From a virus, in the IMG/VR virus record IMGVR_UViG_3300042197_004942, positions 1 through 35,843 of that record: a stretch of 35,843 nt of DNA. One strand, 5' to 3'. Position 1 is the stretch's first letter, and each line of letters opens with the position of its first letter. A model generated the notes under the pieces. The model made no database searches. It worked only from the letters and a program-made list of their open reading frames with translations, and was not told the DNA's origin. Below are positions 4,958 to 24,019 of the stretch, one piece after another. A program made the translations under genes and the position numbers.

Positions 4958-7900
4958 TTATTCCTTCCACTTGTCCCAGAATCTAGTGTTCTTGATCATT
5001 TCTTCGTATGTATGATTAGCAAATCTTTTATTCATGCGACCTTTTCTAATGCCAGAAACTCTAACTACTACTTCAACTATGTTATCTTTAAGAACATCTC
5101 CTTGTCCTTCTATTATAACAGTATTATAAGAAACTTTAACTCCTACCAATATTGGTTTGGATGGAACTGCACTTACTGCAACTATTGAATCTTTTTCACA
5201 AACTTGTATGAATCTTTCATCTAATAATTGAAGATGAGCTTCATTTGTTATTCCTTGTCCCCCAATCTTGCATATTATAATGTCCTCAAACCTTACTTCT
5301 GGCATTTCCACGCAAATCAATTCCACATATTCTTGACCTTGTGCAGTCAAGATTGGAACTATTGCATACTTATCTCCTTGTGGGCCTTGTTCTCCTTGAT
5401 TTCCTTGTTCCCCTTGACTACCTTGTTCTCCTTGTGGGCCTTGCTCTCCTTGATTTCCTTGTGCGCCTTGACTGCCTTGTTCCCCTTGACTACCTTGTTC
5501 TCCTTGTGGGCCTTGCTCTCCTAATGGGCCGGGTTCTCCTTGTTGGCCAATAATGCCTTGTGGCCCTTGTTCGCCTTTTGATCCAACTGCTCCTTGGAAT
5601 CCAGCAGGCCCACCTTGATTTCCTTGGCTTCCCTGTGCGCCTGTATTACCAGTATCACCTTGTGAACCTTGATTTCCTTGATTTCCTGTCAAGCCTGTTA
5701 ATACACTATAAATGTTTTGGTCTGTAAGGGCATTTCCAGAAACATAATTTACTCCTACAGTATAATAATCTATTGGAGTTCCAGAAAAACCTCCTGATTG
5801 GAATCCTACAGGACTTCCACTTGAACTAAATATAACCAATTCACTTGTATTATCTGATTCAATATAAATGTAATTGTTTGTTATAAAGTCTTCAATATAA
5901 TTTTGTTGGTTTAAACTGTTAAAATCAACCTTTTTGATGTATAAAGTTGTTACGCTTCCAATAGTTGCATTGTTGAAATGTATATATCCTGCTGATGGTG
6001 CCTGATTACCATAAACTGTTTCATATTTATACCTTGGCCCTGCTATAACGCCTTGATTTCCTTGATAACCTTGGTATCCATCTGCTGGCCCTTGGAAACC
6101 TTGATTACCTTGATTTCCCTGTGAACCTTGTCTTCCTTGGATTCCCTGATTTCCTCTTTGGCCTTGATTGCCTTGGAAACCTTGAGAGCCAATCCCTCCT
6201 TGATATCCTTGAAAACCATCTGCTGGCCCTTGAAAGCCTTGATTGCCTTGTGCGCCTGTGTCGCCTTTTGAGCCTTGCGCTCCTGTTCCATATGGGCCTT
6301 GGTGACCTTGCAATCCTTGTTGCCCTTGGTTGCCTTGTCTTCCTTGTGCGCCTTGCCTACCCTGTTCTCCTTGAAATCCATCGGCTGGCCCTTGATATCC
6401 TTGTAGCCCTTGTGGCCCATTCGCTGGCCCCTGTGCGCCTGTTGATCCTTGATTTCCTTGTAATCCTTGATTTCCTTGATGGCCTTGGTTGCCTTGCGAT
6501 CCTATTCCTATTTCACCTTGTGATCCTTTCGCCCCTTGTGGTCCAGCAGCACCTTGAGCGCCATAAGCTGGCCCTTGAAATCCTTGTGATCCTGTTGTTC
6601 CTTGATTGCCTTGTTCTCCTTGTTCTCCAATTTCCCCTTGATATCCTTGAAATCCCGCTCCTGTTAGTCCCTGATTACCTTGATTGCCTTGCAAACCAGT
6701 TGTTCCCTGATTACCTTGGTTACCTTGGTTTCCTTGGTTTCCTTGATTACCTTGTGAGCCTTGTAGACCTTGCAGTCCTTGATTGCCTTGGTTGCCTTGT
6801 GATCCTTGTAGTCCTTGTAAACCTATATCACCTTGATTGCCTTGATTGCCTTGTGATCCTTGTAAACCTTGTATTCCTTGATTGCCTTGGTTGCCCTGAT
6901 TGCCTTGCGATCCTTGTAGGCCTTGCAGACCAATCACCCCTTGATTTCCTTGATTACCCTGATTGCCTTGCGATCCTTCTAGGCCTTGAAGACCGATTAT
7001 GCCCTGATTGCCCTGATGTCCCTGATTGCCTTGTGATCCTTGATAACCTTGATATCCTTGATATCCTCTATCTCCTTGTGCGCCACCAGTATCTCCTTGT
7101 GCGCCTTGGAATCCTGCTCCTTGTGCGCCTTGGAATCCTGCTCCTTGTGCGCCTACAATTCCTTGATATCCTTGATATCCTATATCACCTTGTGCGCCTC
7201 CAGTATTACCTTGCGCTCCAGTAATTCCTTGATTGCCTTGATATCCCTGATTACCTTGATTGCCTTGATATCCTTGATTACCTTGATTACCTTGATTGCC
7301 TTGTGATCCTTGTAATCCTTGTAGACCTTGTAAGCCAATAACGCCTTGATTACCTTGCAATCCTTGCGATCCCTGCGACCCTTGAATGCCTTGCTCCCCT
7401 TGCTCTCCTTGCTCTCCTTGCTCTCCTTGCTCTCCTTGATTTCCTTGATTTCCTTGAAAACCTTGTGAGCCTTGATTACCTTGTTCTCCCTGATTTCCTT
7501 GATGGCCTTGATTCCCCTGATTGCCTTGGTGACCTTGTAAGCCTTGATTGCCTTGATTACCTTGGTGACCTTGTAAGCCTTGATTGCCTTGATTGCCTTG
7601 GTGACCTTGTAAGCCTTGATTGCCTTGATTGCCTTGATTGCCTTGAAAACCTTGATATCCCTGTAATCCCTGCAATCCAATGTCCCCTTGTGCGCCTCCT
7701 GTATTTCCTTGTGCGCCTGCTGTTCCTTGATTTCCTTGATTGCCTTGATTTCCCTGAAATCCTTGAAAACCTTGTGAGCCTTGTGATCCTGTTGATCCCA
7801 CAACACCTTGATTGCCTTGGTTGCCTTGATTGCCTTGTGATCCTTGCGATCCTTGTACTCCTTGATTGCCTTGTAAGCCCTGAAATCCCGCTCCTTGATT

Positions 7901-10066
7901 TCCTTGAAATCCTTGTTGGCCTTGATTTCCTTGATTTCCTTGATGACCTTGACGACCTTGCTCTCCCTGTTCTCCTTGACTTCCTTGTTGACCCTGACGG
8001 CCTTGTCTGCCTTGATTTCCCTGTTCTCCCTGCTCTCCCTGAAATCCTTGACCTTGATTGCCTTGATTTCCTTGCGATCCCTGAACTCCTTGATTTCCTT
8101 TTTCTCCTTGTGCCCCAATATCTCCTTGACGACCTTGTCTTCCTTGATTGCCTTGATTTCCCTGCTCTCCTTGTGATCCTTGAGACCCTTGTCTTCCTTG
8201 ATTACCTTGGCGACCTTGTTCGCCTTGGAAACCAACATCACCTTGAAAACCTGCTCCTTGTTCACCTTGATTTCCTTGATGTCCTTGACGACCTTGGAAA
8301 CCTTGCTCTCCCTGCGATCCTTGAACTCCCTGATTTCCCTGTCGTCCTTGATTTCCTTGTCTGCCTTGCTCTCCTTGATGACCCTGTTCTCCTTGCGATC
8401 CTTGAGAACCTTGACGACCTTGGTTGCCTTGGCGACCTTGTTCGCCTTGAAAACCACCATCACCTTGAAAACCTTTTTCACCTTGGAATCCCGCTCCTTG
8501 AACTCCTTGTAATCCTGTTGATCCCTGATTTCCTTGATATCCTTGCTCTCCTTGATATCCTTGTTCGCCTTGCCTACCTTGGCGACCTTGATTGCCTTGC
8601 TCTCCCTGAACACCCTGTTCACCTTGGTTTCCTTGTGAACCCTGCCTTCCTTGTTGTCCTTGATTTCCTTGCGCTCCTGTATCTCCTTTTACACCTTGAG
8701 AACCAGTAGAACCTTGGCGACCTTGATTTCCTTGATTTCCTTGATTACCTTGTTCTCCTTGTGATCCTTGAGAACCTGATCCAGTTAGACCTTGACTGCC
8801 TTGGCGACCTTGATTCCCTTGTTCTCCTTGTGAGCCTTTAGAACCTTGCGCTCCTGTTTCACCTTGTCTGCCTTGATTACCTTGTAATCCTTGATCGCCT
8901 TGAGAACCTGATCCAGTTAGACCTTGACTGCCTTGGCGACCTTGATTGCCTTGTTGGCCTTGATTTCCTTGTTCTCCCTGTGAACCTTTAGAGCCTTGAG
9001 AACCAGTAGAGCCTGTAAGTCCTTGATGGCCTTGACGACCTTGATTTCCCTGTTCTCCTTGTTCTCCCTGTGAACCTTTGGAGCCTTGAGAACCAGTTTG
9101 ACCTTGATTTCCTTGTCTACCTTGAGAACCCTGTTCCCCTTGCGATCCTTGAGCGCCCGATCCTGTCTCGCCTTGATTTCCCTGCCTTCCTTGATTGCCT
9201 TGTTGGCCTTGATTTCCTTGTTCTCCCTGTGAACCTTTGGAGCCTTGTGATCCTGTTGCGCCACTATCACCTTGACGGCCTTGATTGCCCTGCCGACCTT
9301 GTTCTCCTTGGAATCCTGCTCCTTGTGTTCCTTGACTTCCTTGGTTACCTTGACGGCCTTGATTGCCTTGCAAACCTTGATCGCCCTGAGAACCCTGAAA
9401 TCCTGCACCTTGCGATCCTTGTAGTCCCTGTAATCCATTTGAACCTTGCAGCCCTTGTGATCCTGCTCCCTGATTGCCTTGTGACCCTTGTACTCCCTTA
9501 CCTCCCTGTAAACCTTGCAATCCCTGAACACCTTGCAATCCCTGTGCTCCATCTAAACCTTGTAAGCCTTGGTTGCCTTGAATTCCCTGAAAACCCTGTC
9601 CTTGTAAGCCCTGTAATCCTTGTAGGCCTTGTAATCCTTGCAAACCTTGTAAGCCCTGATCTCCCTGTAATCCTTGAAAACCTTGTTCGCCTTGCTGTCC
9701 TTGATATCCTTGTTCGCCCTGAAAACCGGCTGGCCCACCTTGATTGCCTTGCGATCCTTGATTTCCTTGTAATCCTGTTGTTCCAGTAAGACCTTGATTG
9801 CCTTGTAAACCTTGTGGGCCAGCTACTGTTGATGCAGCACCTTGTGCGCCTTGTGAACCACCTATGCCTTGCTCTCCCTGTGATCCTTGTGCGCCGGGAG
9901 TGCCTTGGTTTCCCTGCGGCCCTTGTTTTGAGTCTCCTATTCCTACCGATACAATCAAATCCCTCATGTCTTGAGCGGTTATGCCACCTTGATTATTGTC
10001 TGCAAATATACACAATAATTCTTCTTCAGTTCTTGGTGTACCAGATTGATTGCATTGATTTGCCAT
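4958..10066 (-). CDS. giant collagen-like fibre protein (1702 aa)
   Basis: The N-terminal 47 residues ([14 protein letters not shown]) form a short attachment-like domain seen in collagen-type virion proteins. About residues 48-1342 are almost uninterrupted Gly-X-Y triplets, mostly GxQ (GNQ, GLQ, GEQ, GRQ) with few prolines. About 1343-1456 is a non-collagen insert rich in Tyr, Asn and Ser (starting [12 protein letters not shown]). A second collagen stretch runs to about 1565. The last ~137 residues are a globular domain with VRFEDI, RFIQVCE and [13 protein letters not shown]. That domain recurs in the next gene and probably trimerises or anchors the fibre. Expected to be a long surface fibre of the virion. 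AGGAAATAATC precedes the ATG. Long antisense frames across it are artefacts of the repeat. Confidence 0.9.
7389..7433 (-). repeat. 9-base tandem repeat, 5 units
   Basis: Five consecutive units on the plus strand: the last four are CCTTGCTCT and the first differs in its last base. They encode five Gly-Glu-Gln triplets in the collagen-like protein. This is the most uniform stretch at DNA level and is prone to in-frame slippage, which would change fibre length by whole triplets. Confidence 0.85.
7524..7631 (-). repeat. 36-base tandem repeat, 3 units
   Basis: Three 36-base units start at 7524, 7560 and 7596. Each encodes twelve residues of the pattern GxQ with His, Asn and Leu in X, and they are nearly identical at DNA level. 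This suggests recent duplication inside the collagen gene by unequal recombination or slippage. Confidence 0.85.
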
Positions 10067-10079
10067 GATTATTTCCTAT

Positions 10080-11270
10080 TTAATTTTTCCAGCTATCCCA
10101 GAATTTATTGTTCTTTATCATGTCATCATAAGATCGTTCATTAAACCTGCTACTTTCAAATCCAATTCTTATTCCAGACAACCTCATATTTACAATAATT
10201 TTACTTTCTAAATTTTTGCCTTCCGCTTGCAAATAAACATAGTCATCAATTACTTCTGCTCCCAACAAAACAGGCCTAGAAGGCATACAAGAAATAACAC
10301 ATATTGAGTTTTGTTCACAAACCTTTATGAACTTTTCATCAATCAAAAACTTGTATTCATTTATATTTTTATTTTCGCCAATTTCAACAGTCATGATATC
10401 TTCAAATCTAACATCAGGCATTTCCATACATGAAAGATCATAATATTTTGATTTATCATCTACTAAGATTTCTATTATAGCGTTTTTGGGGCCTGCTGGC
10501 CCTGTTGCTCCTTTGGGGCCTGTTGGGCCTGCTGGCCCCGTAGCTCCAGTAGCTCCAGTTGCTCCTGTTGCTCCTTTTTCTCCTTTTTGACCTGTTGGCC
10601 CCGTAGCTCCTTTTGGCCCTGCTGGCCCTGTTGCTCCTTGCGATCCTGTGCTTCCTTTACTTCCAGCCACACCACTTGATCCTTGCGCTCCTTGTCTGCC
10701 TTGACTTCCCTCTTCTCCTTTTATTCCTTGTTCTCCTTGCAATCCCCTATCACCCTGAAATCCTTGTTCGCCTTTAGACCCCTGATTGCCTTGCGATCCT
10801 TTTTGTCCTTGACTTCCCTGACCTCCTTGATTTCCTTGATTTCCTTGTCTTCCTTGATTTCCTTGATTTCCTTGTCTTCCTTGATTTCCTTGAAATCCTT
10901 TTTCGCCTTGCCTTCCTTGATTTCCTTGATTTCCTTGTCTTCCTTGTTGACCCTGTTCTCCTTGATATCCTTTTTCACCTTGGCGACCTTGAATACCTTG
11001 GCTACCATTTCTGCCTTGCAGACCTATTCGTCCTTGTTCTCCCTGAAGGCCTTTATCTCCTTTTACACCTTGCTGTCCTTGTCTTCCCTGTTGTCCTTGC
11101 CTACCTTCTTGACCTTGTTCACCAGTTACTCCTGTTGATCCAGCACTACCCTGCGATCCTTTGGCACCTTGATATCCTTGGCTACCTTGCACTCCTATAT
11201 CGCCTTGAAAACCCTGTGGGCCTCCAATGTCTAAAGACCTTACTTCAAATTGATTGTTATACTCTTTCAT
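10080..11270 (-). CDS. collagen-like fibre protein, shorter paralogue (396 aa)
   Basis: The first ~16 residues (MKEYNNQFEVRSLDIG) are non-collagenous. About 17-262 are Gly-X-Y triplets. Most resemble the GxQ repeats of the neighbouring giant protein, but the last ~55 residues switch to Pro/Ala/Thr/Lys-rich triplets (GATGATGATGATGPAGPTG) of the classical bacterial collagen kind. The final ~130 residues match the C-terminal domain of the 1702-residue neighbour: MPDVRFEDI, EKFIKVCEQNSI, LSGIRIG and MIKNNKFWDSWKN. The N-termini differ, so the two may attach at different sites or assemble in series through the same foldon-like cap. RBS TAAGG lies upstream, and the stop is 13 bases from the next gene's start, so the two genes are probably in one operon. 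Confidence 0.9.
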   Translation of the reverse strand: MKEYNNQFEVRSLDIGGPQGFQGDIGVQGSQGYQGAKGSQGSAGSTGVTGEQGQEGRQGQQGRQGQQGVKGDKGLQGEQGRIGLQGRNGSQGIQGRQGEKGYQGEQGQQGRQGNQGNQGRQGEKGFQGNQGRQGNQGNQGRQGNQGNQGGQGSQGQKGSQGNQGSKGEQGFQGDRGLQGEQGIKGEEGSQGRQGAQGSSGVAGSKGSTGSQGATGPAGPKGATGPTGQKGEKGATGATGATGATGPAGPTGPKGATGPAGPKNAIIEILVDDKSKYYDLSCMEMPDVRFEDIMTVEIGENKNINEYKFLIDEKFIKVCEQNSICVISCMPSRPVLLGAEVIDDYVYLQAEGKNLESKIIVNMRLSGIRIGFESSRFNERSYDDMIKNNKFWDSWKN

Positions 11271-12760: not shown

Positions 12761-13702
12761 ATGCGTCACTTTCTCTCCATATCAGATTTAAACAAAGAAG
12801 AAATACAAGAAGTTTTAAAAATAGCCACCAACATTGAAAAAGATTGGCAGTATTGCAGAAACATGAATAACAAGTGCATAGCCAGTTTTTTTGCAGAACC
12901 ATCAACAAGAACAAGATTTTCATTTGAAAGGGCAATGCATTGGTTGGGTGGCAGGATTGTAACTGCTGCTGATGCATCGGCAAGCAGTAGCCTCACAAAG
13001 GGCGAAACCTTAAAAGATACTTTCCGCACTCTTGGCCAATACTCTGATGCTATAATTATGAGACATAGTGACAGCAAATGGCCAGATATAGCAAGACAAT
13101 ACTCTAGAGTTCCTGTTATCAACGCTGGTAGTGGTAGCGGAGAACACCCCACACAAGCTCTTCTCGACCTACACACAATCAAACAAAAGTGGAATACAGT
13201 TGATGGCTTGAAAATTCTTATATGTGGTGACCTTAAAAATGGAAGAACTGTTCACAGCCTTATAGAACTTCTTAATCTTTATGGAATGAAAATCTTTTTA
13301 TGCCCCGCAAATGATTACGAAAACTGTGACTTCAATATACCTGAAAAATATCTTTCTACGATTCCTTGTAAAACAATTGATATTGATGAAGCAAATGATG
13401 TATTGCCAGATATGGATGTTATTTATATGACAAGAATACAGAAAGAAAGATTTAAAAGCATTTGTGGCAAAATAGATTTTTTCAAAATAACAAAAGATAA
13501 TATCAACAAAATTAAAGAAAATGCTGCAATTCTCCATCCTCTTCCAAGAAATGAAGAAATTAGCGAAGATATTGATGATGATCCAAGAGCGGATTATCAC
13601 GAAAGACAAGTTAGAAATGGTCTTTATGTCAGAACTGCCTTGTTAGACTACTTGTTATACACAAGTCCTTTGCATCGTGAAATTTTCAGGTCATGCTCAT
13701 GA
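12761..13702 (+). CDS. pyrB: aspartate carbamoyltransferase, catalytic chain
   Basis: 313 residues, full length for the catalytic chain. The active-site set looks intact: carbamoyl-phosphate loop EPSTRTRFSFE near residue 47, the 80s-loop SSLTKGETLKDT, AIIMRHSDS, EHPTQALLDLH, GDLKNGRTVHSL, YMTRIQKERF and HPLPRNEEI. The HPTQALLD and HPLPR forms separate it from ornithine carbamoyltransferase. It catalyses carbamoyl phosphate plus aspartate to carbamoyl aspartate, the first committed step of pyrimidine synthesis. No regulatory PyrI-like gene is adjacent. An AGAGGA site precedes the ATG. It overlaps the methyltransferase-like gene by four bases. With the dCMP deaminase it points to phage support of pyrimidine nucleotide pools. 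The gene is unusual for a phage. Confidence 0.92.
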   Translation: MRHFLSISDLNKEEIQEVLKIATNIEKDWQYCRNMNNKCIASFFAEPSTRTRFSFERAMHWLGGRIVTAADASASSSLTKGETLKDTFRTLGQYSDAIIMRHSDSKWPDIARQYSRVPVINAGSGSGEHPTQALLDLHTIKQKWNTVDGLKILICGDLKNGRTVHSLIELLNLYGMKIFLCPANDYENCDFNIPEKYLSTIPCKTIDIDEANDVLPDMDVIYMTRIQKERFKSICGKIDFFKITKDNINKIKENAAILHPLPRNEEISEDIDDDPRADYHERQVRNGLYVRTALLDYLLYTSPLHREIFRSCS

Positions 13703-15087: not shown

Positions 15088-15972
15088 ATGAAAATAGCGT
15101 TATGTCCTCTTGTTAGCAGAGATATTGAAAAGGCTATAAGAGCTACCAATTCGTGTCGTAATCAAATAAAACCAGAAAGTATAGAAACAGAAACAGTTGC
15201 AATAATTAATTCCTTAAATAATCAATTTATAGATCAGTATTGCAATTGGTGTGATAAAGAAAGTGTTAAATACAAAATAACTGAATCAAAAGGAACACCA
15301 AGTAGGGGTAAAAACTCGGTATTAGAATTCTTAGTCGAATCTGAATATGATGGAGTATCAATGACAGATGGAGATGATTTATTTTATCCAACAGGTATTT
15401 TACAAATTGAGCGTCATTTGATGCATCATCCCGGCACAGATGTTCTTATCGTAAAACCATCAGATCAAGTTACCAACTGTTCTGAAAATGGTTATCAAAT
15501 AAAAGAAAATGAATATGCTTGTTGTTGGGGCATGAATTTAGTTAATTTAGGATATATGTATGGGCCGGGAAAACATGATATATTTGTAAAAGGACATTCA
15601 TCAGCCAGAAACTTAGGAGGTCATGTTTTTTACAGCAAAAAAATGGCAAAGTTAGCAAGATATGATGAAGATCAACTTTTAGGAGAAGATTTGCTATTGG
15701 AGTTTGAATTGCTTAAATTACATCAAGAAAGAAAGATATGTTTTTGGCTTAGTTTTGCTAGTGATGTACAAATGTTAGATAGAACTATGCAAGAAAGCAT
15801 CCAGTACACCAAAAATATATCAGATGGACAGTTTTATTTCAAAAGATTGGTAGAAAAAGTAAGACAAATACTACCAGAAGATAGAAGTTCATTTCATGAG
15901 TTACCAGTAGAATTTCCAGAACTTTTATTTTCGCATTCAGAAAAAATAGAGTGGTTGAAAAAAGTGTTTTGA
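15088..15972 (+). CDS. GT-A type glycosyltransferase (GT2-like)
   Basis: 294 residues. The N-terminus MKIALCPLVSRD begins a nucleotide-sugar-binding Rossmann-type half. The metal-binding DxD region is SMTDGDDLFYPTGI near residue 93, and a later GEDLLLEFELLK resembles the catalytic ED motif of GT2-type enzymes. No transmembrane helix, so it acts in the cytosol. Substrates cannot be told. The only ribosome-site candidate is AGG ten bases upstream, so initiation may be weak. It is followed by the long non-coding gap. It belongs to the scattered glycosylation set of this window. Confidence 0.72.
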   Translation: MKIALCPLVSRDIEKAIRATNSCRNQIKPESIETETVAIINSLNNQFIDQYCNWCDKESVKYKITESKGTPSRGKNSVLEFLVESEYDGVSMTDGDDLFYPTGILQIERHLMHHPGTDVLIVKPSDQVTNCSENGYQIKENEYACCWGMNLVNLGYMYGPGKHDIFVKGHSSARNLGGHVFYSKKMAKLARYDEDQLLGEDLLLEFELLKLHQERKICFWLSFASDVQMLDRTMQESIQYTKNISDGQFYFKRLVEKVRQILPEDRSSFHELPVEFPELLFSHSEKIEWLKKVF

Positions 15973-16021
15973 CTTCTAGGTTAAATTAATTTACAATTCT
16001 TGTGGCAGTCCTAAAGCTAGG

Positions 16022-16415
16022 GTAATAAAGGTTTCGTACTACCTTAAAAACCTTAGTGCCAAACCTGCGAGTCTCTTACCAAGAGAAGGGTCTTTGTAGT
16101 TGTTTCTACAACGAAAGCTGTAACGGGCAGCTTTGTTCTCGCAGCAACAGAGGTCAAGCCAGATGGTATAGTTGCTGACTCCTATTGTCCTTGTTCTCCC
16201 AAAGAAAAACAAATCAATAGGGCTATCTGGTTTTAGGTTTGTTGCAAAGAAAAGTACGCTAACAATCACCAACCATAAGGTCATTGTATGAACAACAAAA
16301 GTTACAAAGCAAAAAAAGGCTTAAACGCTTAATTTTTGCTCTACTAACTTTTGTTGTTCTATAGTCATAACTTAATGACTATATGAGTAATGAACCATTA
16401 GGGTCAGCAACCCGG
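16022..16415 (+). ncRNA. candidate large structured non-coding RNA (novel)
   Basis: The 15973-16507 gap has no credible gene but a dense chain of perfect inverted repeats. They are AAGGTTT/AAACCTT (16028-34/16048-54), CTCTT/AAGAG (16073-77/16081-85), TTGTAG/CTACAA (16094-99/16106-11), AAAGCTG/CAGCTTT (16114-20/16128-34), CAGCAAC/GTTGCTG (16142-48/16171-77), CCTATTG/CAATAGG (16181-87/16215-21), a 14-base arm at 16291-304/16345-58 with inner AGCAAAAA/TTTTTGCT, ATAGTCAT/ATGACTAT (16361-68/16375-82), TAATG/CATTA and GGGT/ACCC. Longer-range pairs are CTGCGAG/CTCGCAG (16065-71/16138-44), CAAACCT/AGGTTTG (16060-66/16235-41) and AAGCCAGAT/ATCTGGTTT (16156-64/16225-33). The last crosses the CAGCAAC helix as a pseudoknot and contains a G-U pair only on the plus strand. 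It does not look like tRNA, tmRNA or a group I intron. Confidence 0.5.
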
Positions 16416-16507
16416 TCTGCTCTGCGATTGTAAATAAAAATTCAAAAAACTTATTTCCTTGCACTTGTTGTCAAAAACCCTTATATTTGGCCAAGAAGAG
16501 GTGAATT

Positions 16508-17839
16508 ATGAATTTCGAGTCTCTGGCCAATGTTCTGTCAAATATCGAGCATAAGACCCTTTTATTTAAATTTAATCCAAGTGTGCCTGATTTCACAGTC
16601 AAGGATTCTGAGTGTGAGTTGCAACTAGTTTTTCCTGATAAGACAAATGTGCAAATTATCTTGAAAAGTGAAACATTACCTTTGATTATCAGTATGCTTC
16701 ATATATCATTGTTTATAAAAGATGTAAAGATTTTAGCATGGGATTGGAAGTCATTTGTTTCTTACATACTTGGCAAGACTGGAAAATATATAAAAATAGA
16801 TGCATCTATTATAGATTTGAAAGTTATAGAGCAATGCAATGGAATTTATAAAAATGCTCCTGATTCTTATTTAGAGGCTATCAACAGAACTAGGGGTTTG
16901 ATTGCAAGTGGTCAATGGTCTGATACAGAAAGTTTGTATAAGCAAATTTATTTGCCACTCATGACAGATGTTTTGCCTTCTCTTGAGACTATTGGAATTA
17001 TTGACACAGATTTAGGTAAAAAGGTTTTTGCACATTATGAGATCAATGGTCAAGAGAATGGTCGCTTAAAGTGTTTTGGAGCTTATCAGAATTCATTTAA
17101 TCCACACACTATTGGGCCAGAAGCAAAAAAGTCATTGAGGCCAGTTGGTTATGATTCTCTTTTTATGTCTTTTGACTTTAAAGGAATGGAAGTTTTTGTT
17201 TTGGCGCATTTGAGTAAAGACGAAAATCTAAGCAATATGTGTCAGACTGAAGACATTTATTTGTCTCTTGGAAAGGCTTTGTTTGGTACAGATAAGGAAA
17301 AAAATGACAGAGAGTTAACAAAAAAATGTTTTCTGCCGGTTATATATGGTCAGTCAGCCCGTTCCCTTTCACAAAGATGCGGAATAGCTCCTGATGTCTC
17401 TGAAAGAGTTGTTGAACAAATTAGTTCTTTGTTTTCAAAAGCTCTTTCATTCGTTGCCGAACATGAACAAAGACTTAAAAAAGATGGTTTTATAAAGGAT
17501 GTATTTGGCAAAAGAAGGTCATCTTTTGAATCTGGCAAAGAATATTTAGCTAGAAATTTCTCTGTTCAGTCACCTGCTGCGACGATTTGTTTAGAAAAAC
17601 TTATAAAACTTCATTATTCTTTATCAAACTTAAATCAATTCTTGAAACACAAGGCGCAAATCGCTTATACTGTTCATGATGGTTATGTTGTGTATATGAC
17701 CAAGGATAATTGGAAAGAAGTCTTGAAAAAGGGACTTGAGGTTTTGACAAGTGAATCAGAAATATGTCCCGGCTTGAAATTAAAGGTTTCTTGCAAGGGA
17801 GGAAAAAGTCTTGATGACTTGAAAATTATCAAAAGATAG
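16508..17839 (+). CDS. family A DNA polymerase, exonuclease domain degenerate
   Basis: 443 residues, shorter than Pol I or T7 polymerase. Motif A is SFDFKGMEVFVLAHLSKDE near residue 224. Motif B is RELTKKCFLPVIYGQ (R, K, F, YG pattern) near 268-282. Motif C is TVHDGYVVYM with H390, D391 and G392; the family normally has HDE. Residues ~1-130 align in shape with a shrunken 3'-5' exonuclease domain (LAWDWKSFVSYIL, then IDLKVIE) but I see no DxE pair, so proofreading is probably absent here and may come from the DnaQ-like protein at 1765. GAGGTG lies five bases before the ATG. The sigma-like gene follows eight bases later. Replicative role is likely; the Gly in motif C is odd. Confidence 0.88.
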   Translation: MNFESLANVLSNIEHKTLLFKFNPSVPDFTVKDSECELQLVFPDKTNVQIILKSETLPLIISMLHISLFIKDVKILAWDWKSFVSYILGKTGKYIKIDASIIDLKVIEQCNGIYKNAPDSYLEAINRTRGLIASGQWSDTESLYKQIYLPLMTDVLPSLETIGIIDTDLGKKVFAHYEINGQENGRLKCFGAYQNSFNPHTIGPEAKKSLRPVGYDSLFMSFDFKGMEVFVLAHLSKDENLSNMCQTEDIYLSLGKALFGTDKEKNDRELTKKCFLPVIYGQSARSLSQRCGIAPDVSERVVEQISSLFSKALSFVAEHEQRLKKDGFIKDVFGKRRSSFESGKEYLARNFSVQSPAATICLEKLIKLHYSLSNLNQFLKHKAQIAYTVHDGYVVYMTKDNWKEVLKKGLEVLTSESEICPGLKLKVSCKGGKSLDDLKIIKR

Positions 17840-17847
17840 GAGAAATT

Positions 17848-18399
17848 ATGCTTAATATTGTTCAAAATTTTCCGATTACAGAAAGTGAATTTACAAGCCT
17901 TACTCAAAAGTTTGCTAATTTATGTTGGCATATAGCACATGGACTTAAAAAGAAAAACTCCAACAACAATTATCTCGATGATGCAGAAGATATAAATCAA
18001 GAATTGCAACTAAGTATGCTTAGGGCAGGAAGCTATTATAAAAGGCAAGTTTATATTGAAAAGTGTTTAAGTGCAGCTAGGAAGTTTGTCAAAAATAATT
18101 TCGTGAGTATGATAGTTGATGAACTTGAGAATTTGTGGAAAAATAGAACAAGGCATGGTGCAAATAGACAAAAGTATGGTCTTTTTCAAGAAAAGGTTCT
18201 TGATAAGATCATTAACAAGTATGTGCCTCCTCAAGAAAGACCAGACAGGCTTGCTCCTCTTGTCATAGACAGCAAGTTTGTAACATATTGCAAGGCAATA
18301 GTGTGGAATGGACAGAAAAGCATGGGCAAGAAAATCACTAGGGAAAAGTCAATAAGAAGCGGAATGGTATCATTGTCAGAGTTTGAATTTCTTAATTGA
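17848..18399 (+). CDS. possible phage sigma-like factor (gp55-type)
   Basis: 183 residues, similar in size to T4 gp55 (185). The segment DDAEDINQELQLSMLRAGSYY near residue 45 resembles sigma region 2 (an E-D-x-x-Q-E pattern, then a G/A-L-x-x-A stretch). The following VYIEKCLSAARKFVKN resembles the helix after it in small phage sigma factors. The C-terminal half is basic and conserved-looking (GKKITREKSIRSGMVSLSEFEF). A strong AGGAG precedes the ATG, eight bases after the polymerase stop. If correct it would direct late transcription, consistent with the few TATAAATA-like elements. An alternative is an unrelated replication accessory. Moderate to low certainty. Confidence 0.4.
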   Translation: MLNIVQNFPITESEFTSLTQKFANLCWHIAHGLKKKNSNNNYLDDAEDINQELQLSMLRAGSYYKRQVYIEKCLSAARKFVKNNFVSMIVDELENLWKNRTRHGANRQKYGLFQEKVLDKIINKYVPPQERPDRLAPLVIDSKFVTYCKAIVWNGQKSMGKKITREKSIRSGMVSLSEFEFLN

Positions 18400-22897: not shown

Positions 22898-22898
22898 C
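22871..22898 (-). terminator. hairpin at the end of the UDP-galactopyranose mutase gene
   Basis: GGGGA/TCCCC (22871-75/22894-98) encloses GTTC/GAAC (22879-82/22887-90) with symmetric three-base interior loops. It touches the stop codon of the mutase gene. The minus-strand tail is TTGTCTC, so termination may be partial. Confidence 0.4.
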
Positions 22899-24019
22899 TA
22901 ATTCAAATTTTTGCACTTTGTGAGAGCAGAAGCAATTGTTTGATCTAAGTCAAAATACTTGTATTCTCCCAATCTGCCTCCAAATGTAATTTCGTGATTG
23001 TTTGAGTTGAGAGAAGAGTACCTGTTATAAAGGTCGCTATTTTTATTGTCTCTTATTGGATAATATGGTTCTGGATGATCTTTGAATGATACTGGTATGT
23101 CATAACTAACTATTGTTTGTTCTTGTTCTTTTTTTGTTTCATAATGTTTTGGAGATTGTTTGTAAAAGTGTTTGTGTTCTACTGATCTTAGATATGGACA
23201 AGACAAGTCAACATGATTAAAAACAGCATTACCTTGAAAGTCTCCTGACAGTATTTTATGTTCAAACCTCAAAGTGTTGTATTCTAGACATCCATATTCA
23301 TAATCATAAAACTTGTCAATTGGGCCTGTGTAAACAAGATGTTTTGCATAATTACGCCAGTTTGATCTTATAGTGAAGAAATCAATTCCAACATTCACAT
23401 CTATGCCTTCAAGCATATTGTTGATTAAATCCGTATAACCATTTTCTGGCATTCCTTGATACTTTGTTGTAAAATAATTTTCTTCATATGTAAGTCTTAT
23501 TGGCAATCTTTGAATAATAGAAGCTGGTAATTCAGAAGGTTCTTTAAGCCATTGTTTTTTTGTATATCCATAAAAAAATAGTTCATATAGTTCTTTGCCA
23601 ACTTTGTCTAATATCCATTCCTCAAAGTTTCTAGGATTTTCATGTGGTATTCTGACTTCTTGTAGTTTTCTTTTTGCATCTTCTGGACTTACAACTCCCC
23701 ATAGTTGGTGAAGGGTCATCAAGTTTATTGGAAAAGAATAAACTTTGTTTTTGGACAATACTTTTGGCTTATTGATAAAAGGTATAAACTTAGTGAATTG
23801 GCTTACAAAGTTCCAAACTTCATCGCTTTGGGTATGGAATATATGAGCGCCATATTCGCTAACTAGTATTCCATTGTCCCATTTTCGATCAAAAGCTGCT
23901 CCAGCAACATGAGTGTTCTTGTCAATTACCAAACACTTTTTTCCAAGGTCTGTTGCCTTTCTAGCAAAAGTTGAGCCAAAGAAACCAGCACCAACAATTA
24001 AAAAGTCATACTTTGCCAT
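22898..24019 (-). CDS. glf: UDP-galactopyranose mutase
   Basis: 373 residues, normal length. The FAD-binding Rossmann loop is FLIVGAGFFGSTFA at the N-terminus, then IDKNTHVAGAAF and the family signature SEYGAHIFHT. Middle segments FINKPKVLSKNKVYSFPINL and FFYGYTKKQW are typical, as is the late FGGRLGEYKYFDLDQT. It interconverts UDP-galactopyranose and UDP-galactofuranose using reduced FAD in the cytosol. It lies between two GT9-like genes on the same strand, overlapping the upstream one by 14 bases. This indicates that the phage makes a galactofuranose donor, most simply for decorating its own virion or a host envelope glycan. Confidence 0.95.
   Translation of the reverse strand: MAKYDFLIVGAGFFGSTFARKATDLGKKCLVIDKNTHVAGAAFDRKWDNGILVSEYGAHIFHTQSDEVWNFVSQFTKFIPFINKPKVLSKNKVYSFPINLMTLHQLWGVVSPEDAKRKLQEVRIPHENPRNFEEWILDKVGKELYELFFYGYTKKQWLKEPSELPASIIQRLPIRLTYEENYFTTKYQGMPENGYTDLINNMLEGIDVNVGIDFFTIRSNWRNYAKHLVYTGPIDKFYDYEYGCLEYNTLRFEHKILSGDFQGNAVFNHVDLSCPYLRSVEHKHFYKQSPKHYETKKEQEQTIVSYDIPVSFKDHPEPYYPIRDNKNSDLYNRYSSLNSNNHEITFGGRLGEYKYFDLDQTIASALTKCKNLN

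Follow-up and report, generated by a model that had tools for sequence, protein, structure and literature searches.

A candidate new class of large structured RNA directly upstream of the DNA polymerase gene in large phages

To our knowledge, very few large structured phage RNAs of unknown function are known, GOLLD and ROOL being the cases. GOLLD has a length of about 800 nt. It is a large, ornate, pseudoknotted non-coding RNA of phages and lake metagenomes that forms RNA-only cages, and ROOL is a large structured phage-linked non-coding RNA that forms an octamer cage (PMC12286853). OLE RNA is a large conserved non-coding RNA that works as a dimer/RNP (PMC12286853, PMC12054373).

The RNA analyzed here lies directly upstream of polA in a 35.8-kb viral contig (the whole stretch of 35,843 nt is called the window below). 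It resembles GOLLD (RF02032) in its large ornate fold, pseudoknot and phage origin, but it is shorter (about 430 nt), is tied to polA and has no match to the GOLLD model. Like ROOL (RF03087), it is large, structured and phage-linked, but its plan differs and the ROOL model does not match it. OLE is bacterial (Bacillota), whereas the polA-gap RNA belongs to phages and is without an Rfam match. A search of Rfam 15, including RNase P RNA, SRP, 6S and all other families, gave no match at gathering or permissive E-values, in agreement with a preliminary description of this DNA, which could name no family. No tRNA or tmRNA was detected by ARAGORN or matched in Rfam. The GOLLD and ROOL models found nothing in the whole contigs of the relatives at E<=1, the control genomes of both searches being equally silent. 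Because no known family matches and relatives hold the same place in many phages, sequence comparison indicates that the polA-gap RNA is a new RNA class, unrelated to GOLLD and ROOL, whose core covaries in full. The newness is that of an RNA family; the loose heading of large structured phage RNAs already exists.

The polA gap and its relatives

The window carries a T4-like gene set with a gp32-type SSB, RecA/UvsX, a DnaB-like helicase and a family A DNA polymerase. The gap (15973-16507, 535 nt) is flanked by the gene at 15088-15972 and by polA (16508-17839, plus strand, 443 aa), the constant downstream neighbour of the RNA. The preliminary description had called these two a glycosyltransferase and a DNA polymerase gene. 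The latter was right, and the polymerase is of family A; the former label is unverified, since 15088-15972 had no match in Pfam, PHROG or PDB. The RNA thus sits between two intact genes without interrupting either, within a replication module (polA, DnaB-like helicase). Elsewhere in the window, collagen-type repeats extend over 4958-11270 (minus strand), where 10080-11270 matches Pfam Collagen and the repetitive ORF 4958-10066 (1702 aa) cross-matches the same stretches of relatives; these genes probably encode tail fibres. The window also holds phage-borne genes for a carbamoyltransferase (OTCase/ATCase family) and a UDP-galactopyranose mutase, at 12761-13702 and 22898-24019.

Some 16 distinct lineages of phages, many of them large and mostly uncultured with contigs up to 381 kb, have a diverged relative of the RNA immediately 5' of polA. 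The first came from a scan with the window polymerase, in which the gap DNA was 73-76% identical over about 440 nt and PolA only 61-67% identical. DNA patterns drawn from the conserved blocks led to two further types (L028 and L030), and a scan with the protein encoded after polA (17848-18399, alignment A4) returned 80 loci on contigs up to 381 kb. A profile search then added more copies, each immediately before polA and on its strand, in phages with polymerase identities as low as about 40%. When a covariance model (R1) was searched over 588 kb, all matches below E 0.01 lay in the polA gap, including six loci outside its seed (L110, L117, L118, L147-149). Model R2, built with these six, recovered two loci used in neither model, L109 (6e-9) and L111 (2e-9), and had no other match below E 4. 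The left-out relatives recovered by the models were all on the plus strand upstream of polA, and whole-contig searches of positive contigs (98-381 kb) gave one significant copy each. The preliminary description had proposed looking for homologous gaps upstream of polA; these exist, with massive compensatory change.

Pattern matches in genome contigs (L071-L078) and in further viral sequences (L043, L045-L070, L079-L082) were judged to be chance, being without a convincing profile or covariance model match. INPHARED phages gave no meaningful DNA match to the window or to L030. In LR756511.1, a 595-kb phage, the genes stand in the same order without a gap, and the covariance model search gave no significant match. 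No description of the polA-gap RNA was found in the open literature (a search that left subscription papers and most preprints uncovered).

In a polA tree rooted only at its midpoint, all rows positive with the covariance models, L109/L111 and the L108 group fell into a single 27-row clade (support 100/99), and the other clade had no gap or a different sequence there. The RNA is inherited with the polA locus. In the L108 group, inside the carrier clade, the gap RNA is unrecognized by the models but has a stable fold (z about -5.4). Upstream of polA, another type of structured gap sequence was seen at L108:3150-3610 (also in L112, L113 and L116) and L143:3000-3560. By eye, AAUGGGCCGAC...UAGCGGCUAG and GCGUGCC are common to both lineages, whose folding z is -5.2 to -5.6 and which match neither Rfam nor R1/R2; these sequences may represent the same RNA in a distant form. 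In a further locus, the region immediately before polA (L159:3276-3656) holds six direct repeats (core GGTGTGGAACACCTTGAATTGTAGGTAGACCGCAAC), spaced mostly by 62-66 nt, that resemble a short CRISPR array carried by a large phage.

The protein encoded at 17848-18399 (183 aa, all-helical, motif NRTRHGANRQK) lies directly 3' of polA in the retrieved loci. It was modelled (pLDDT 80.6) in search of an RNA-binding partner. This conserved neighbour had no family match and no fold match in PDB or BFVD, and one relative gave a weak sigma-70 region 2 match. No protein partner of the RNA was found.

Conserved fold of the RNA

The gap folds at -158.8 kcal/mol, compared with -117.0 +/- 5.6 kcal/mol in dinucleotide shuffles (z -7.46, plus strand), and its conserved part (16004-16455, 452 nt) gave z -6.3 and -8.0 in two runs. 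In GC-rich relatives the folding z is weak (L107, -0.3). No frame stays open across the homologues, and the gap is therefore non-coding. It had been described beforehand as a gap without a good gene, more structured than random sequence and rich in inverted-repeat helices; all of this holds, the listed helices are present, and two of them (P5 and P9, below) also covary. Shuffle-like stability, lack of compensatory change and a conserved frame were each checked for, and none was found.

The minus strand folds about equally well (z -7.15), so energy alone leaves the strand undecided, and this near equality would suit inverted repeats at the DNA level, or a protein-coding gene, with no RNA function. 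Among the homologues, G-U pairs outnumber A-C mismatches 37 to 7, which points to selection on RNA and not on DNA hairpins. This asymmetry, the closed frames and the compensatory change in the pseudoknot contradict a DNA-level or protein-coding reading, whose probability we consider negligible. The gap almost certainly encodes a real conserved structured RNA.

The core was defined from an alignment of 16 sequences (A5), scanned for helices without prior assumption. P5, P6 and P3 came out on top and P4 was also high. In the 33 core pairs, 95.4% of cells were paired, compared with 74.9% in shuffled and 29-43% in slid alignments; 26 of the 33 pairs changed on both sides, and none of 500 shuffles was as good. 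All elements lie on the plus strand. In plan, P0 stands just outside a four-way cruciform (P1-P4), followed by the hairpin P5 and by P6, which crosses P0. Upstream of the core is a 5' hairpin (16017-16053) with the conserved loop segment UUUCGUACU and the stem AAGGU..ACCUU at 16028-16045, whose pairs are GGU/ACC in most relatives and GGC/GCC in L012. P0 (16063-16066 with 16151-16154, ACCU/AGGU) is paired in 100% of cells, with a CG to UA change at one pair. P1 (16067-71/16138-42) closes the cruciform of three hairpins (16067-16142). Within it follow P2 (16072-16086), the nearly invariant single-strand element GUCUUUGUAG (16089-16098) that leads into P3, P3 itself (16099-16112, both-side changes in 4/4 pairs) and P4 (16114-16134, 100% paired, both-side changes in 4/6 pairs), which has the conserved loop NACGRG. 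P5 (16160-16229, outer helix 16160-66/16223-29) changes on both sides in all 7 pairs.

P6 (16144-16149 with 16240-16245, GCAACA/UGUUGC) was found de novo. P1 and the 3' strand of P0 flank one of its arms, and the other follows P5. Taken alone, P6 was paired in 85.9% of cells against 49.0% when shuffled, with a covariation of 0.92 against 0.245 (0/500 shuffles on both scores). P6 and P0, which cross, make a true pseudoknot. The preliminary description had proposed a pseudoknot in which the pairing 16156-64/16225-33 is crossed by a helix at 16142-48/16171-77. A pseudoknot is thus present, and that pairing survives as P5, backed by covariation, but the homologues lend no support to the crossing helix itself (63% of cells paired vs 57% shuffled).

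An origin, or a primer, would have no need to maintain 33 core pairs plus a pseudoknot at the RNA level. This weighs against a replication element, in which an origin beside polA and the helicase gene is primed or marked by the transcript; an RNA that lies within the replication module and is present once per contig would be compatible with such an element. AT-rich unwinding elements and iterons were not noticed either, albeit without a systematic search, and we regard such a replication element as improbable.

Downstream of the core, a conserved A-rich joining segment (16246-16259) ends in AAAGUACGC. The 3' domain begins with the long hairpin P8 (16290-16359, helix 16290-304/16345-359), a fold common to most relatives despite different sequences. 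P8 encloses the hairpin P7 (16318-16329) with its conserved loop UUAAAC (16321-16326). P7 stems read GGC/GCU, AGC/GCU, GGC/GCC, AGU/ACU and UGU/ACA and are paired in 42 of 42 cases; the exact loop is absent in L107, L123, L147, L109-111, L117 and L118. Within the loop, the palindrome UUAA is a possible symmetric kissing loop joining two RNA copies. The hairpin P9 follows (16361-16382), every 5' arm of which is different among 18 sequences, and covariation supports it. A conserved 3' block (16398-16434) runs from GUCAGCAACCCGGU to GAUUGUAAA.

Arm-swap tests on up to 21 sequences, whose figures lean upward because the arms were picked by eye, gave 80/80 pairs for P1 in 16 sequences with 11 different 5' arms (60% with arms swapped), 96% for P6 in 21 sequences with 19 different 5' arms (44% swapped), 100% for P7 (73% swapped) and 99% for P9 (50% swapped). 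A terminal helix seen in distant relatives and absent in the window's own group (AACUGAG/CUCGGUU) was 94% paired, no better than swapped arms (highest swap 96%).

The strand order P0'-cruciform-P6'-P0''-P5-P6'' equals that of the group I core, P3'-P4/P6-P7'-P3''-P8-P7'', as might be expected of a ribozyme or its remnant, for example one derived from a group I intron. In group I introns P7 is highly conserved in sequence and holds the guanosine site. Its equivalent here, P6, is almost without sequence conservation, as its many different arms show, and group I-type catalysis is unlikely because this P7-like helix is free to vary. Moreover, there are no exons, no gene is interrupted, and no Rfam intron or ribozyme matches. 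This reading therefore seems very improbable.

Strand, promoters and the transcript

The excess of G-U over A-C and a sigma70-type promoter just upstream both place the RNA on the plus strand, as had been proposed from a single G-U pair. The promoter (TTGACT-N17-TACAAT, 15969-15997, plus strand) overlaps with the stop codon of the preceding gene, and 0/200 shuffles were as good at this site; a simple consensus scan picked the same site, not separable from chance. Across 22 homologous loci, which are not fully independent, such a promoter (p<0.05) was found upstream of the RNA in 13, inside it in none and on the reverse strand in one. Single-subunit RNA polymerases had no match in five contigs, the control of that search being equally silent. 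Taken together, the sequence signals make it likely that the RNA has its own transcript. We infer a structured RNA of about 430 nt (16003-16434, plus strand), placing its 5' end by the promoter and its 3' end by the final conserved block, GAUUGUAAA.

In the window, the stretch from the RNA to polA showed no intrinsic terminator, which leaves room for read-through into polA and a role in cis. This would fit the main rival reading, a cis-acting leader of the polA operon, in which the polA message begins with the RNA, and the RNA tunes polymerase output in response to a product, a ligand or the infection stage. The RNA always precedes polA directly, with both on one strand, as a cis regulator would also show, and its carriers fall in the same polA clade. 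However, a promoter (p<0.05) lies between the RNA and polA in 7 of the 22 loci; in the window, this possible separate polA promoter (TTGCAC-N17-TATATT, 16459-16487, plus strand) is weak (p=0.04). The distance from the RNA to the polA start varies, no conserved helix was seen at the polA start/ribosome-binding site (by eye) or forming a terminator, and the RNA, with two covarying domains, is much larger than usual leaders. On balance, we consider a leader rather unlikely.

Possible role in the carrier phages

The best explanation is probably a stand-alone non-coding RNA gene whose product would work within the replication module, as a scaffold or RNP, and the RNA probably acts in trans. Host sigma70 RNA polymerase would start the RNA at its own promoter, a step that we regard as supported. 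The plus-strand transcript of about 430 nt would then fold into the pseudoknotted core, followed by the 3' domain P7-P9 with its UUAAAC loop. In trans, the folded RNA may bind further copies of itself or proteins from phage or host, and may be used as a scaffold or RNP when phage DNA is replicated or the host is taken over. More speculatively, by analogy with the kissing loops of OLE and GOLLD, the RNA could be a machine that self-assembles via UUAA, or is catalytic, and is core to replication in a clade of huge phages; we hold this as a tentative possibility.

The fold, the compensatory change and the lack of an Rfam match support the original proposal of a new class of large structured phage RNA. 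Earlier large phage RNAs, GOLLD and ROOL, led to unexpected RNA-only cages. The polA-gap RNA keeps the same address despite polymerases that can be as little as about 40% identical, which suggests that it is probably important to the phages that carry it.
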